64,000 nucleotides of DNA from assembly GCA_003990705.1 (NCBI GenBank), contig AP018318.1, positions 1,553,501-1,617,500 on the forward strand. The letters run 5' to 3'. Of this stretch, positions 22,574 to 57,096 are shown piece by piece; the first letter of the stretch is position 1, and every line of letters begins with the position of its first letter. The translations under genes were made by a program, and so were the position numbers. Below the pieces are notes generated by a model that worked only from the letters and a program-made list of their open reading frames with translations, did no database searches and was not told the DNA's origin. The stretch is from Nostoc sp. HK-01. GTDB taxonomy: Bacteria > Cyanobacteriota > Cyanobacteriia > Cyanobacteriales > Nostocaceae.

Positions 22574-24925
22574 TTATTCATCATCAGTGTATGGTTCTAA
22601 ATCGTTAGGTTCAAGTTCACGAGACAAATAAATATCGTCTCTGTCATCGTTAATACCAGAGTTACCTAACCCTTTAGGTAGTCCATCGCTACCAACGGTG
22701 ACTAAATCGATTTGTTGACGGTAGTAATCAACACTTTTGACTTGGACGGCGACGCGATCGCCTAATCTATAAGAAGCGCGATTTTTCCGACCAAACAAAG
22801 CTTGTTGTCTGGCGCGATATTCATACCAGTCATCTTTGAGGGAACTGACATGAACTAAACCTTCCACTCGTAGGGGGGCGCTGGGATGTTTTTGTTTGGG
22901 TGTATCTGTGGTTGGGACTTCAATTTCCACAAAGAAACCATAGGATTGCACACCAGTAATTACACCTTGGAAGACTTGGCCGATGCGCTGTTTCATCAGT
23001 TGGGCTTTTTGCAACCCTGCTAAGTCAGCTTCTGCTTCTTGGACTTCTTTTTCGCGGTCGTTGAGTTGAATAATTACCCTGGTTAAATCGCTTTGCAGTT
23101 CTTGTTGCAATTCTGGGGGTAAGACGTTCCAGTTAACTTCGAGGTGGGAAGAGGAGTGACGCAAGTTAATCCGGTCTTTAACACGGGTATTGCGGCGATC
23201 GCGTCCGTGTTCTAGCAGTCTGTAGTAAACTCGTTGCAATAGCAAATCGGGATAACGGCGCAAGGGGGAAGTACAGTGAGTATATTGTGCTAGTGCCAAA
23301 CCAAAGTGATTGCTTTTGGTGGTGGTATATCCCGCTGGTTTGAGGGTATCTTGCAACAGATAAGTTAACACTTGTTCTGAGGGAGATTCTGCAAACGCTC
23401 TTGTTAATAACTGGTAATCTAAGGGTTGAATATCTGTTTCGGGATCTAATGTGAGTTCTACGCCTAAATTGATGGCCAGTTTCAGCATTTCTTGGACATC
23501 TTCGGGATCAGGTGCGCCTTGAACTCGCCAAATCGCTGGAATGCCTAAAGCACTTAAATGTTCTGCCATTAGTTGGTTGACTAATAGCACAAACTCTGTG
23601 AGTAACGATCGCACGGTTAAATCGTTGACGATAACTGCGCCTAACATTCCTTCATCAAAGTAAGGATTTTGATTTGGGGGCAGATTTAACTGCAAACTAC
23701 CACGACCTAAGCGCACTTGTTTGACAATTTGGTGTAGGCTTTCTAGGTCTTGGAGTAGCTGTACTACTTCCTCAGATTCTTTAGATGGTTGGCCACTGAG
23801 AACTGCTTCTGCTTTGTCTTTATTAATGGCTGTGTCTACATTAATTACACTCGGCTGAATTTCCCATTCTTGCAGTTCACCCGATGTGGGATCGATAGTG
23901 ATTAAAAATGAGAGAGTCAGGCGATCGCTGCCTGAAACTAAAGAACAGCGATCGGCAACTGTTTCTGGTAACATAGGCAATACTAAATCGCCCAAATACA
24001 CAGAACGTCCTCGCTTCAAGGCTTCTCTGTCTAAGATTTCGTCTGGGTGGATAAAGTGGGAAACATCGGTAATGTGAAAGCCCAAGCGCCAGCCTTTGTT
24101 GGTTTTTTCCAAACTCAAGGCATTTTCTACCAGCTTGGCATCAGCATTGACACCAGTAATTGCTAAGGTAAATAAACCGCGTAAATCTAATCTATTTTTC
24201 AGGTCAGCTTTGAGTATTCTTTTAGGTAACTTAGCCGCTGCTTCTTGAACTGGTTCTGAAAAATTGCGGGATAAATCGTGTTTACAAGTAACTAAATCAA
24301 TATCGGCTGCGGCTTCGGCATCGCTACCTAAAATTTGTACTACCCTACCGATGGGTGGATATTGGGCTAACGGATAACGCAGAACTTCCACATGGGCGAG
24401 ATGGTCGATAGCTTCAGCAAAAGTCATGCCATTGGTTTGCAACTTGAGTTCAAACAACAGCCGATCATCTAAAGGTACTGCCCGAAAACCGCTTTCTACT
24501 TGTTTAATCCGCGCTAGTAAAGTGTGATTAGAACGTTCTAAAATTAACTTGACTTCTCCTTCGGGAGAACGGCGACGACTACCTTCTTTGAGAACTCTGA
24601 CTAAAACGCGATCGCCATTCCAAGCATTACTTAAATGACTTTCGCGGATGTAAATATCTTCTGCACCTTCTACATCTTGTATTGCAAAGCAAAAGCCTTT
24701 ACTAGAACAACGGAGTTTGGCTTCAATCATCCCTTCTTCAAACACGCGGCGATATTTGCCCCGTTCTTTGACCAAAATCCCGATTTTTTCGAGTATTTCT
24801 AAGGCAATATGCAGCTTTTGTAAACTATCTTCATCTTCGCAGCCAAGTTTCTTTTCTAAAACTTTCCGAGCTACCAATTTATCATCGGTGAAATTGGCAA
24901 GGAGTGTAGCGATTGAAAATTCCAT
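22574..24925 (-). CDS. RNB-domain (RNase II/R family) protein with degenerate active site
   Basis: 783-residue protein laid out like RNase R: an N-terminal helical and cold-shock part (about 1-200), the RNB domain (about 240-600) and a C-terminal S1 domain (about 645-755, G-V-I-T-G-V-Q-S-Y-G-F-F-V-E). The RNB signature normally reads T-I-D-x(6)-D-x-D-D. Here residues 255-269 read A-I-T-G-V-N followed by A-D-A-K-L-V-E-N-A, so the metal-binding aspartates seem replaced. The later T-S-P-L-R-R-Y RNA-binding motif is kept. It may correspond to the cyanobacterial protein called Zam (acetazolamide resistance), an RNB-family member; that link is from memory. RNA binding without exonuclease activity is my inference. 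It leads an apparent operon with ubiX. Confidence 0.8.
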   Translation of the reverse strand: MEFSIATLLANFTDDKLVARKVLEKKLGCEDEDSLQKLHIALEILEKIGILVKERGKYRRVFEEGMIEAKLRCSSKGFCFAIQDVEGAEDIYIRESHLSNAWNGDRVLVRVLKEGSRRRSPEGEVKLILERSNHTLLARIKQVESGFRAVPLDDRLLFELKLQTNGMTFAEAIDHLAHVEVLRYPLAQYPPIGRVVQILGSDAEAAADIDLVTCKHDLSRNFSEPVQEAAAKLPKRILKADLKNRLDLRGLFTLAITGVNADAKLVENALSLEKTNKGWRLGFHITDVSHFIHPDEILDREALKRGRSVYLGDLVLPMLPETVADRCSLVSGSDRLTLSFLITIDPTSGELQEWEIQPSVINVDTAINKDKAEAVLSGQPSKESEEVVQLLQDLESLHQIVKQVRLGRGSLQLNLPPNQNPYFDEGMLGAVIVNDLTVRSLLTEFVLLVNQLMAEHLSALGIPAIWRVQGAPDPEDVQEMLKLAINLGVELTLDPETDIQPLDYQLLTRAFAESPSEQVLTYLLQDTLKPAGYTTTKSNHFGLALAQYTHCTSPLRRYPDLLLQRVYYRLLEHGRDRRNTRVKDRINLRHSSSHLEVNWNVLPPELQQELQSDLTRVIIQLNDREKEVQEAEADLAGLQKAQLMKQRIGQVFQGVITGVQSYGFFVEIEVPTTDTPKQKHPSAPLRVEGLVHVSSLKDDWYEYRARQQALFGRKNRASYRLGDRVAVQVKSVDYYRQQIDLVTVGSDGLPKGLGNSGINDDRDDIYLSRELEPNDLEPYTDDE

Positions 24926-24978
24926 GCAGTGAACCGACCTTTGGTCAAAACATCATGTTGGTTTAATCTGGTTCTGTT

Positions 24979-25445
24979 CTGTAGACCCTCACGGTCTACA
25001 GACACTATCTAACTCGAAACGAATTGCCCTGAGACATGGTTCTGTGAAGTTCCACGCCCTGGAAGTCAACCTACCTTGAGATAAAGCCACTCCCGAAATC
25101 TTGGAACTTCTCACTGCACGACCATTTCAGAGTTAGCTGGCGCTTTTTGCCCCTTCACTTAACCAAACTGATAAAGTACGCCTGATAAGGGGGTTTTACC
25201 TACTCAGTGATTACGCTAAGGGTTTTTGAGAGGCTGGCTTTAGGATTACTCTCCACACTGCCCAAAAGCGCTAGGTAGGAAAAACCACAGGTGTTTGATT
25301 GTCTAGCTTGAAGGTGCTTTTACGCCATCAGACTCTGATTTTTAACTAGGAGAAACTGCCGATAAACCTAACTTTCCCATCTGTAGAATCGGTAACAATT
25401 AGGCCAGCAGTCATACAAGCAGTGAGGGCGAACCTTATCTCCATT
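24979..25445 (-). ncRNA. Candidate structured RNA or long leader of the RNB gene
   Basis: About 470 bases without a reading frame of 60 codons. Pairings found by eye are a perfect 9-bp hairpin with a 5-base loop (24979-25001), and a set of nested stems: 25009-25015 with 25130-25136 (7 bp), 25029-25032 with 25127-25130 (4 bp, sharing one base with the first), 25036-25040 with 25121-25125 (5 bp), and 25046-25054 with 25102-25110 (9 bp). A further 7-bp match joins 25070-25076 to 25273-25279, and another joins 25221-25227 to 25280-25286. I checked from memory for tmRNA, RNase P RNA, SRP RNA and group I/II intron cores and found none. Strand is inferred from its place directly upstream of the RNB gene. 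Confidence 0.4.
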
Positions 25446-25502
25446 ATTGTAGATTTAGAGCGTACTTCTAAGAAATAATTCTAAATAGAGAATTAGGTAA
25501 AT

Positions 25503-25511
25503 AGTATAGCA
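25503..25511 (-). promoter_or_regulatory. Candidate extended -10 element
   Basis: On the minus strand the sequence reads TGCTATACT, a TGn extended -10 box. It would start a transcript near 25496 with a leader of about 570 bases before the RNB gene. No good -35 is seen, which is tolerated with extended -10 boxes. Confidence 0.25.
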
Positions 25512-25906
25512 TTGAAGGTGAGATCACGTACCTAATAGGGGCAGTAGTCAATAATTTCGCCACAAAAATAGCTACTGCCGCTATTACAACACACAAACAC
25601 CGCAAAAACATCACCTTGCAGTTTAAGGTATCAGAAAAATTGGCATCAAGCACTGTGGCAGTTTTAGTAGGCGAGATCGCATTTATTGGGGTGATGAATA
25701 AATCTGCCAAAAACTTAAATTTAATTAAATTTTTCTCTGCCGACAAAGGAATTTGGGACTTAAAATTAAAATATTTCCATAGATTCACTGTGGACAAACT
25801 CGGTTATCTCCCACTACAGTTGCAAATTTCTCGAACTTGGGCGATGGACACAAAGTTAAGACTTACCTATGAAAACGAAAAATCAAGGGTTGGGACAAGG
25901 GTGTAA
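25505..25906 (+). pseudogene. Open frame without a good start, possible gene remnant
   Basis: A plus-strand frame stays open for 133 codons to the stop at 25904. It has no ATG near its beginning; a TTG at 25616 and a GTG at 25652 are the first conventional options. The product would have a hydrophobic stretch (T-V-A-V-L-V-G-E-I-A-F-I-G-V) and a basic remainder. The minus strand is also open over much of the same region. I recognise no family, and no ribosome binding site is visible. It may be a remnant or chance. Confidence 0.2.
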
Positions 25907-26028
25907 AAGTATAGAGGTGTAGATTTCCCAAACTCTTACACTCCTAAACCCAGTTTCGACAGATAATTTTTATGCGTAAGTCTTGATTATAGATATTTAG
26001 CAGACATTAGATTATTGGTGGCAGTATT

Positions 26029-55389: not shown

Positions 55390-57096
55390 ATGTCATACAA
55401 AATGTCTCGCCGCGCCTACGCAGAAACCTACGGCCCGACAGTAGGCGATCGCATCCGTCTTGCTGATACAGAATTATTTATCGAAGTAGAACAAGACTTT
55501 ACTACCTACGGTGATGAAGTGAAATTTGGCGGTGGTAAAGTTATTCGTGATGGGATGGGACAATCCCCCATTTCTAACGCCGATGGTGCAGTCGATTTAG
55601 TTATTACTAATGCCTTGATTCTCGATTGGTGGGGAGTAGTTAAAGCAGACATCGGTATTAAAGATGGCAAAATATTTAAAATTGGTAAGGCGGGTAATCC
55701 TTATATTCAAGACAACGTAGATATTATTATTGGCCCTGGAACCGAAGCCTTAGCTGGGGAAGGAATGATTCTTACTGCTGGCGGGATTGATAGCCATATT
55801 CATTTTATATGTCCCCAACAAATTGAAGTGGCGATCGCCTCTGGAATCACAACCATGATTGGTGGCGGAACTGGGCCAGCTACGGGAACCAACGCCACCA
55901 CTTGCACCCCCGGCCCTTGGAACATTTACCGGATGTTACAAGCTGCTGATGCTTTTCCTGTCAACTTAGGTTTTCTAGGTAAAGGTAATGCTAGTCAACC
56001 CCAAGCACTAGCAGAACAAGTCCAAGCAGGTGCAATGGGTTTAAAACTACATGAAGACTGGGGGACGACACCCGCTGCGATTGATACTTGTTTGAGTGTG
56101 GCTGATGAATACGATGTGCAAGTAGCCATCCACACCGATACTCTCAACGAAGCTGGGTTTGTGGAAGATACTATCGCCGCTTTCAAAAACCGCGCTATAC
56201 ACACATACCACACGGAAGGCGCAGGGGGTGGACATGCACCAGATATTATTAAAGTCTGCGGTCAAGCTAATGTTTTACCATCTTCTACCAATCCCACCCG
56301 TCCCTACACCCTCAACACCTTAGACGAACATCTTGATATGCTGATGGTATGTCATCACCTCGACCCATCCATTCCCGAAGATGTGGCTTTTGCAGAGTCT
56401 CGGATACGTCGAGAAACCATCGCCGCTGAAGATATTTTGCATGACTTAGGCGCGTTTAGTATGATTTCTTCTGACTCCCAAGCAATGGGGAGAGTGGGTG
56501 AGGTGATAATTCGCACATGGCAAACAGCCCACAAAATGAAGGTACAACGAGGAAGTCTTGAGGGAGACAGTCAAGCCGACAATTTACGTGCAAAAAGATA
56601 TGTTGCTAAGTATACTATTAACCCAGCAATTACACATGGTATTGCCGATTTTGTCGGTTCTGTAGAAGCAGGGAAACTTGCAGACTTATGCTTGTGGCGA
56701 CCTGCGTTTTTTGGTGTCAAACCAGAGATAGTAATTAAAGGTGGGATGATTGCTTGGGCGCAAATGGGTGATGCTAACGCCAGTATTCCCACACCGCAAC
56801 CAGTACATACACAGCCGATGTTTGGTAGTTTTGCTGGTGCTAGACATGCTACATCCTTAACTTTTGTTTCCCAAGCAGCTTTAGAAAGAGAAATTCCTAG
56901 TCAGTTGCAATTACAAAAACCAGCTGTTGCTGTTACCGGAACACGTCAGTTGAGTAAAGGCGACTTGAAGCTAAATGATGCGTTACCGCAAATAGAAGTA
57001 GATCCTGAAACTTACGAAGTGAGAGCCGATGGAGAATTGCTAACTTGTGAACCTGCAACAGTTTTACCAATGGCGCAGCGTTATTTTTTATTTTGA
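55390..57096 (+). CDS. ureC: Urease alpha subunit
   Basis: 568-residue UreC, the catalytic subunit. The carbamylated nickel-bridging lysine is K219 in [10 protein letters not shown]. Nickel His residues are in H-I-H-F at about 137-139. The flap region C-H-H-L-D and the following [12 protein letters not shown] are intact. It hydrolyses urea to ammonia and carbamate in the cytoplasm. AAGGAAAG lies 8 bases upstream of the ATG, so it has its own ribosome binding site although it is separated from ureB by the insertion unit. ureE, ureF and ureG do not follow. Confidence 0.98.

Follow-up and report, generated by a model that had tools for sequence, protein, structure and literature searches.

The window analysed here, a 64,000-nt stretch of the Nostoc sp. 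HK-01 genome, raises the question of what is specified by a segment (24979-25445) that lies directly upstream of a gene for an RNA-binding protein and overlaps no open reading frame of 60 codons or more. The nearest such frames are at 24717-24932 (plus strand) and 25468-25797 (minus strand), and the absence of a 60-codon frame claimed in a preliminary description of this DNA is borne out by the ORF list. That description had recognised no tmRNA or other known RNA, in agreement with the present searches: Infernal runs against all Rfam 15 models at gathering thresholds give zero matches in the segment and its surrounding leader, the total for the window being one tRNA and one other family elsewhere. 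Relaxing the limit to E values up to 5 over 24500-26000 yields two matches (E 1.8 and 4.2), both far under their cut-offs, and ARAGORN finds no tmRNA in the window, its sole prediction being one tRNA (tRNA-Cys). An Rfam match to 5_ureB_sRNA at 55545-55831 (minus strand, 106.8 bits) possibly reflects mere similarity of the underlying urease gene. The segment is probably part of a 5′ leader of about 500 bases of the zam mRNA, transcribed from the minus strand from a promoter at about 25500 and acting in cis, most likely on translation.

The downstream gene and the strand of the element

The gene at 22574-24925 (minus strand) encodes an RNB-family protein of 783 aa with the Pfam domains RNB, OB_RNB, CSD2 and S1. 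It scores 455 bits against the RNase R equivalog model, under the cut-off of 598, and its RNB active site is degenerate, reading DAKLVENAL where the aligned RNase R chain 8cdu_C has DAKDLDDAV. Its cysteines at 73 and 79 occupy the same positions as C73 and C79, the two CSD1 cysteines given for Zam of PCC 7002 in the accessible part of its description (PMC9145284), and thus show the CSD1 signature of the Zam clade. In the same text Zam is said to resemble RNase R, to lack the canonical active site and to be required for optimal photosynthesis in a cyanobacterium (PMC9145284). The gene is called zam here on the strength of its domains, active-site alignment and cysteines, because an RNase R-like alignment with a degenerate site is joined by cysteines at 73 and 79 as in PCC 7002. 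The preliminary description had placed the region directly upstream of a degenerate RNB-family gene; the adjacency holds, and the degeneracy concerns the catalytic residues, whereas the reading frame is intact. On the other side of the region, an slr1353-family gene (NF058667; 26029-27157, plus strand) points away from zam, as does a following 76-codon ORF whose product resembles, by eye, the C-terminal part of the slr1353-family product.

The element as drawn in the preliminary description is real and conserved, but its RNA strand is assigned here to the minus strand, most of the drawn stems are not conserved, and it extends to about 25500. Compared with shuffled sequences, 24960-25480 folds with a z of -3.05 on the minus strand (0/100 shuffles as low) and -1.26 on the plus strand (12/100), and 25005-25140 with a z of -2.64 (2/200) and -1.25 (24/200), respectively. 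Nested stems closing about 25009-25136 can be drawn, as originally proposed, but the assertion that they are unlikely by chance is not borne out on the plus strand. In 27 relatives z averages -1.75 for the zam strand (under -2 in 11) and -0.96 for the opposite strand (under -2 in 6), with the lower value on the zam strand in 18, so that fold energy by itself is weak evidence. The plus strand was rejected as the RNA strand because its folding is weaker and because the promoter and zam both lie on the minus strand.

Anatomy and conservation of the probable zam leader

Read along the minus strand, the locus opens with an operator-like inverted repeat, GGCAGTAG ... CTACTGCC (25540-25579; arms 25540-25547 and 25572-25579), located 5′ of the -10 box GCTATACTAT (25501-25510). 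A similar repeat, with at most 4/14 mismatches and within 90 nt upstream of the -10 box, occurs in 98/130 leaders versus 83/650 shuffled stretches, and is a possible operator for zam. Both the -10 box and the core were found in 131/134 leaders by a search requiring 45-75 nt between them, and comparison establishes a conserved spacing of 56-59 nt in all 131. Transcription would start at about 25493-25496, and we infer that the element and zam are transcribed as one unit and that the element regulates it. Next comes the leader unit proper, compact at about 390 nt (25099-25491), treated in alignment A2 and comprising P0, the 5′ core, P2, P3, P4, P6 and segment B. The P0 hairpin (25465-25484) lies just 3′ of the putative start; its helix 1 has 85.7% of alignment cells paired, with two-sided change in 3/6 pairs. 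Within the hyperconserved 5′ core (25286-25462) are segment A, GGUUCGCCCUCACUGC (25419-25434), which has pairing options with segment B, segment C in the loop region of a 3′ hairpin, or segment E; the P2 hairpin (25355-25411; helices 3 and 4 with 97.2% and 95.8% of cells paired, two-sided change in 4/14 pairs); and the 5′ strands of P3 (25332-25338, partner about 25127-25135; helix 5, 88.5% paired, 3/7 pairs with two-sided change) and of part of P4 (25309-25320, partner about 25149-25157; helix 6, 78.7% paired, 7/14 pairs). Segment B, GUGCAGUGAGAA (25108-25119), is complementary to segment A as well as to the zam start.

The distance from the core start to a B-like site is 326-350 nt in 78 of the 104 leaders with such a site, more than 350 nt in 20 and less than 320 nt in five, the last probably being wrong assignments of B. 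The linker that separates B from the zam start ranges in length from 95 to 592 nt, with a median of 214.5 nt. Near its end lie the 3′ hairpin with segment C, CGUGAGGGU (24979-25001), and beside that hairpin the conserved segment E, AGAACCAGAUU (24965-24975), which is changed in several loci (e.g. L042, L064, L111, L148); a nearly invariant stretch then continues up to the start codon. The start-site block as a whole (24893-24956) consists of the last 31 leader nt and zam codons 1-11. The 3′ hairpin is the perfect 9-bp hairpin of the preliminary description and is present as described (24979-24987/24993-25001, loop CTCAC); its form is kept, with at least 7/9 pairs, in 43 of 67 distinct versions, drawn from the 98/134 leaders in which it was located.

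Similar DNA is present in 192/192 searched genomes of the family of the window (Nostocaceae in the GTDB sense), and the region is far more conserved than its flanks. In 33 loci chosen by hand, mean pairwise identity is 0.33 immediately upstream of the promoter, 0.88 from the -10 box to the core start, 0.80 over 200 nt from the core start, 0.63 over the following 145 nt and 0.97 over the last 40 positions before the start codon. The zam start adjoins the element in 75/75 loci inspected by tblastn, and a zam start anchor is present beside it in 134/135, the exception (L122) being excluded from the leader set. With six further loci from other families, the element thus holds a constant position 5′ of the same gene across relatives, as expected of a cis-acting leader. 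The closest zam relatives span Nostoc, Calothrix, Anabaena, Scytonema, Tolypothrix, Chlorogloeopsis, Dolichospermum and others.

Searches at the DNA level found no similarity outside the family: in a class-wide sample, 17/291 genomes match and all 17 belong to it. A covariance model (R1) built on the 177-nt 5′ core reaches further, matching 34/243 genomes of the order at E values up to 1. Of these, 18 belong to the family, all with E values of about 1e-15 or lower, five to a related family, f3 (E 1.9e-14 to 7.8e-4), and one to another, f61 (E 0.001); all six non-family matches with E of at most 0.001 sit upstream of zam, so that comparison ties the element to zam in three families. The remaining ten matches outside the family are weak (E about 0.16 to 0.8). 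Those in G570, G607 and G505 are taken as chance because their loci have no zam match, that in G580 (E 0.3), upstream of zam, may be a real element, and those in G490, G492, G502, G512, G589 and G627 were left out of the locus inspection. R1 is found in 5/19 genomes of f3, 18 of which have zam, and in 3/10 of f61 at E values up to 1; five further f3 genomes have a P2-like motif solely by a loose pattern (up to 9/28 mismatches). In its own genome the model matches its own locus at 212.7 bits (E 4.4e-37), its other matches having E values of 3.46 and 8.42.

Comparison also establishes constraint within the first 11 codons of zam. In 134 sequences, fourfold sites are identical to the window in 124/133 cases over codons 1-5 and 606/657 over codons 6-10, falling to 75/133 over codons 11-15 and 14/130 over codons 31-40. 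Synonymous constraint thus drops past about codon 11, and some blocks further into the gene rise once more, reaching 0.76 for codons 101-110. The opening 21 bases of zam (24905-24925) are identical in 21/24 other-family loci of the order (L274-L297), and a P2-like motif is found by loose patterns in only 5 of the same 24, on which grounds this part may be older than the leader. In nine loci of f3 and f61 (L298, L299, L304 and L311-L316), UCGCUACA occurs twice around the zam start, once ending at the A of the AUG and once in codons 5-8.

Predicted fold and a possible switch at the zam start

Mean pair probabilities over 79 relatives suggest the helices P0, P1 (A:B), P2, P3, P4, P6 and P7, a nested minus-strand structure that suits relatives better than the stems drawn earlier, with limited covariation. 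Alignment A2 contains 50 of 54 non-redundant leaders (L021, L096, L118 and L121 were dropped by hand). In it, 88.3% of cells are paired versus 86.6% in shuffles, a value reached by 0/500 shuffles and partly circular because the tested rows are among the 79 relatives whose thermodynamic folding gave the structure. The A2 covariation score is 0.166 versus 0.146 in shuffles (again reached by 0/500) and falls to 0.050-0.076 once partners are slid; relatedness and the derivation of the structure inflate these favourable numbers. Pairs with two-sided changes number 22 on A2, no better than slid structures (22-24 at slides of -1 to -3), and the 54 cells with two-sided changes are fewer than in a slid structure (63 at slide -3). 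A free covariation search with a tree-based null, on the 79/134 leaders with core-to-B distances of 320-350 nt, gave no significant pair (best E 12). In the tree-based test of 62 proposed pairs, one, located in P4, has E below 0.05 (E 0.04), and P1 (A:B) shows no covariation; RNAalifold keeps just six pairs on 53 core sequences. The minus-strand fold is partly supported, being plausible in P2 and P4 and unproven overall. Apart from the 9-bp hairpin, the stems listed in the preliminary description are mostly not kept in relatives: the linker partner GAGTTAG of the 25009/25136 stem occurs in just 5/132 leaders, both sides of the 25070/25273 match in 3/132, and both sides of the 25221/25280 match, taken loosely as GGTTT and AAACC, in 38/132.

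The segments of the leader suggest a two-state model, which is advanced tentatively and is somewhat doubtful. In it, segment B would have two alternative partners: segment A of the 5′ core, and the zam start sequence UUCACUGCA, which extends to the A of the AUG. In the family of the window, the zam start would be freer when A holds B; were A instead engaged by another partner, such as the 3′ hairpin loop (through CCCUCAC/GUGAGGG), B could cover the start. Candidate triggers would be the Zam protein, redox state, temperature or a ligand, and feedback by Zam, which has RNA-binding kinds of domains, is a guess.

Complementarity in the leaders is consistent with such alternatives. At least eight Watson-Crick pairs can form between B and the zam start in 90/113 leaders with an assigned B, a level that random 14-mers of the same leaders reach in 0.6%, and between B and A in 56/113. 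Lowering the cut to six pairs leaves B matching A as well as the start in 75/113 leaders and the start alone in 22; in no leader does it match A alone, and in 16 it matches neither. These counts depend on the assignment of B, which is missing from 19/132 leaders and was in some accepted with up to four mismatches. The stretch taken as C has at least six Watson-Crick pairs with A in 94/128 leaders, and E has exactly five with A in 99/128 and with the start in 100/128; since E is changed in several loci, its pairing with A or the start is not part of the main claim. In predicted ensembles for 74 leaders of at most 700 nt, A:B and B:start appear as alternatives, and in that of the window A:B is dominant, along with pairing of E to the start region. 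The mean predicted unpaired probability of the start codon in the 74 leaders is 0.29, so that the proposed 'free' state is not clearly open.

In six family leaders tested, the best match to the start is reached by 1-3/40 shuffles, and in a seventh (L087) by 36/40. For f3 and f61, B:start pairing was rejected as chance level, at least 12/40 shuffles reaching it in all 15 leaders tested of 28. Because the start block is almost invariant, B:start pairing has no room to covary. That the pairing is retained could be a by-product of constraint on B itself, and leaders that are related do not count as independent observations.

Competing readings and the place of the probable leader

Of the two possibilities raised in the preliminary description, a self-regulating leader and an independent RNA, the association with zam, the spacing of the -10 box and the conservation of codons 1-11 favour a leader, which may be self-regulating. 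An independent small RNA is unlikely; on this reading the roughly 390-nt unit, transcribed from the conserved promoter, would terminate or be cleaved ahead of zam and act in trans, and zam would use its own start. It would account for the compact core-to-B distance beside a B-to-zam stretch that varies so widely, and for the terminator-like sites found between the transcription start and zam in 31/131 leaders; however, the other 100 have no such site, none lies between the unit and zam in the window, zam adjoins the unit in the inspected loci, the genome holds one significant copy, and conservation resumes at the zam start. Instead of covering the start, the leader could work via RNase cleavage and the stability of the transcript, as the accessible part of a report on the Synechocystis rne leader describes for a cyanobacterial RNase gene (PMC10989929). 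Despite this published precedent, such a mechanism is distinctly improbable for zam, since the strongest conservation is at the translation start and codons 1-11, which control of translation fits better. About equally improbable is an extension of the leader reading, in which the leader yields a stable cut-off RNA that forms an RNP with Zam, the same RNA also controlling zam translation.

A role at the DNA level only, as conserved sequence or as signals for transcription (promoter, operator, protein-binding DNA) with no function as RNA, is very unlikely: the inverted repeat conserved 5′ of the -10 box and the weakness of the covariation agree with it, but the constraint extends about 400 nt beyond the promoter and enters the coding sequence, and paired positions co-change more than in shuffles. 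A protein-gene remnant or hidden small ORF is highly improbable. Stop-free stretches reach up to 76 codons in single loci, and at least 60 codons in 13, 5 and 12 of 132 loci for the three frames; yet the median length of the longest such stretch within the 340-nt core, over 132 leaders, is 36, 32 and 41.5 codons, and the alignment has single-base indels and no constant ATG. The identity of the region as the zam leader is likely, and a regulatory role is likely too, because coding, known RNAs and promoter signals do not explain some 400 nt of constraint.

Riboswitches and RNA thermometers are structured translational-control leaders with mutually exclusive pairings, one of which covers the start. 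The zam leader may resemble them in possible mutually exclusive pairings, one covering the zam start, but differs in having no known ligand domain and in its architecture of about 390 nt plus a variable linker. Bacterial Y RNAs are encoded beside rsr, whose RNA-binding product is linked to RNA decay. The zam leader has a neighbour of the same kind, although no Rfam family matches it and the RNA appears to lead into zam. A further likeness is to the rne 5′ UTR of Escherichia coli and Synechocystis PCC 6803, which precedes a gene of RNA decay and regulates it in cis, and which in Synechocystis is cleaved by RNase E in a stretch of uridines, according to the accessible part of the report (PMC10989929). 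The zam leader likewise precedes an RNA-decay gene and would regulate it in cis, but belongs to another gene family and has no Rfam match. No description of it was found in the searched literature, which excludes supplements and most subscription papers, and the words UTR and upstream are absent from the available part of the Zam report (PMC9145284). It belongs to a known kind, the structured leaders of RNA-decay genes, among which its gene, its size and its architecture are new.

Should the RNP reading be true, an RNase R-like protein that has lost catalytic residues would be partnered with an RNA encoded directly 5′ of its gene. The zam leader may also be a handle on which RNA Zam binds. As a leader found throughout the family of the window and in members of two related families, it would offer a direct handle on the control of Zam.
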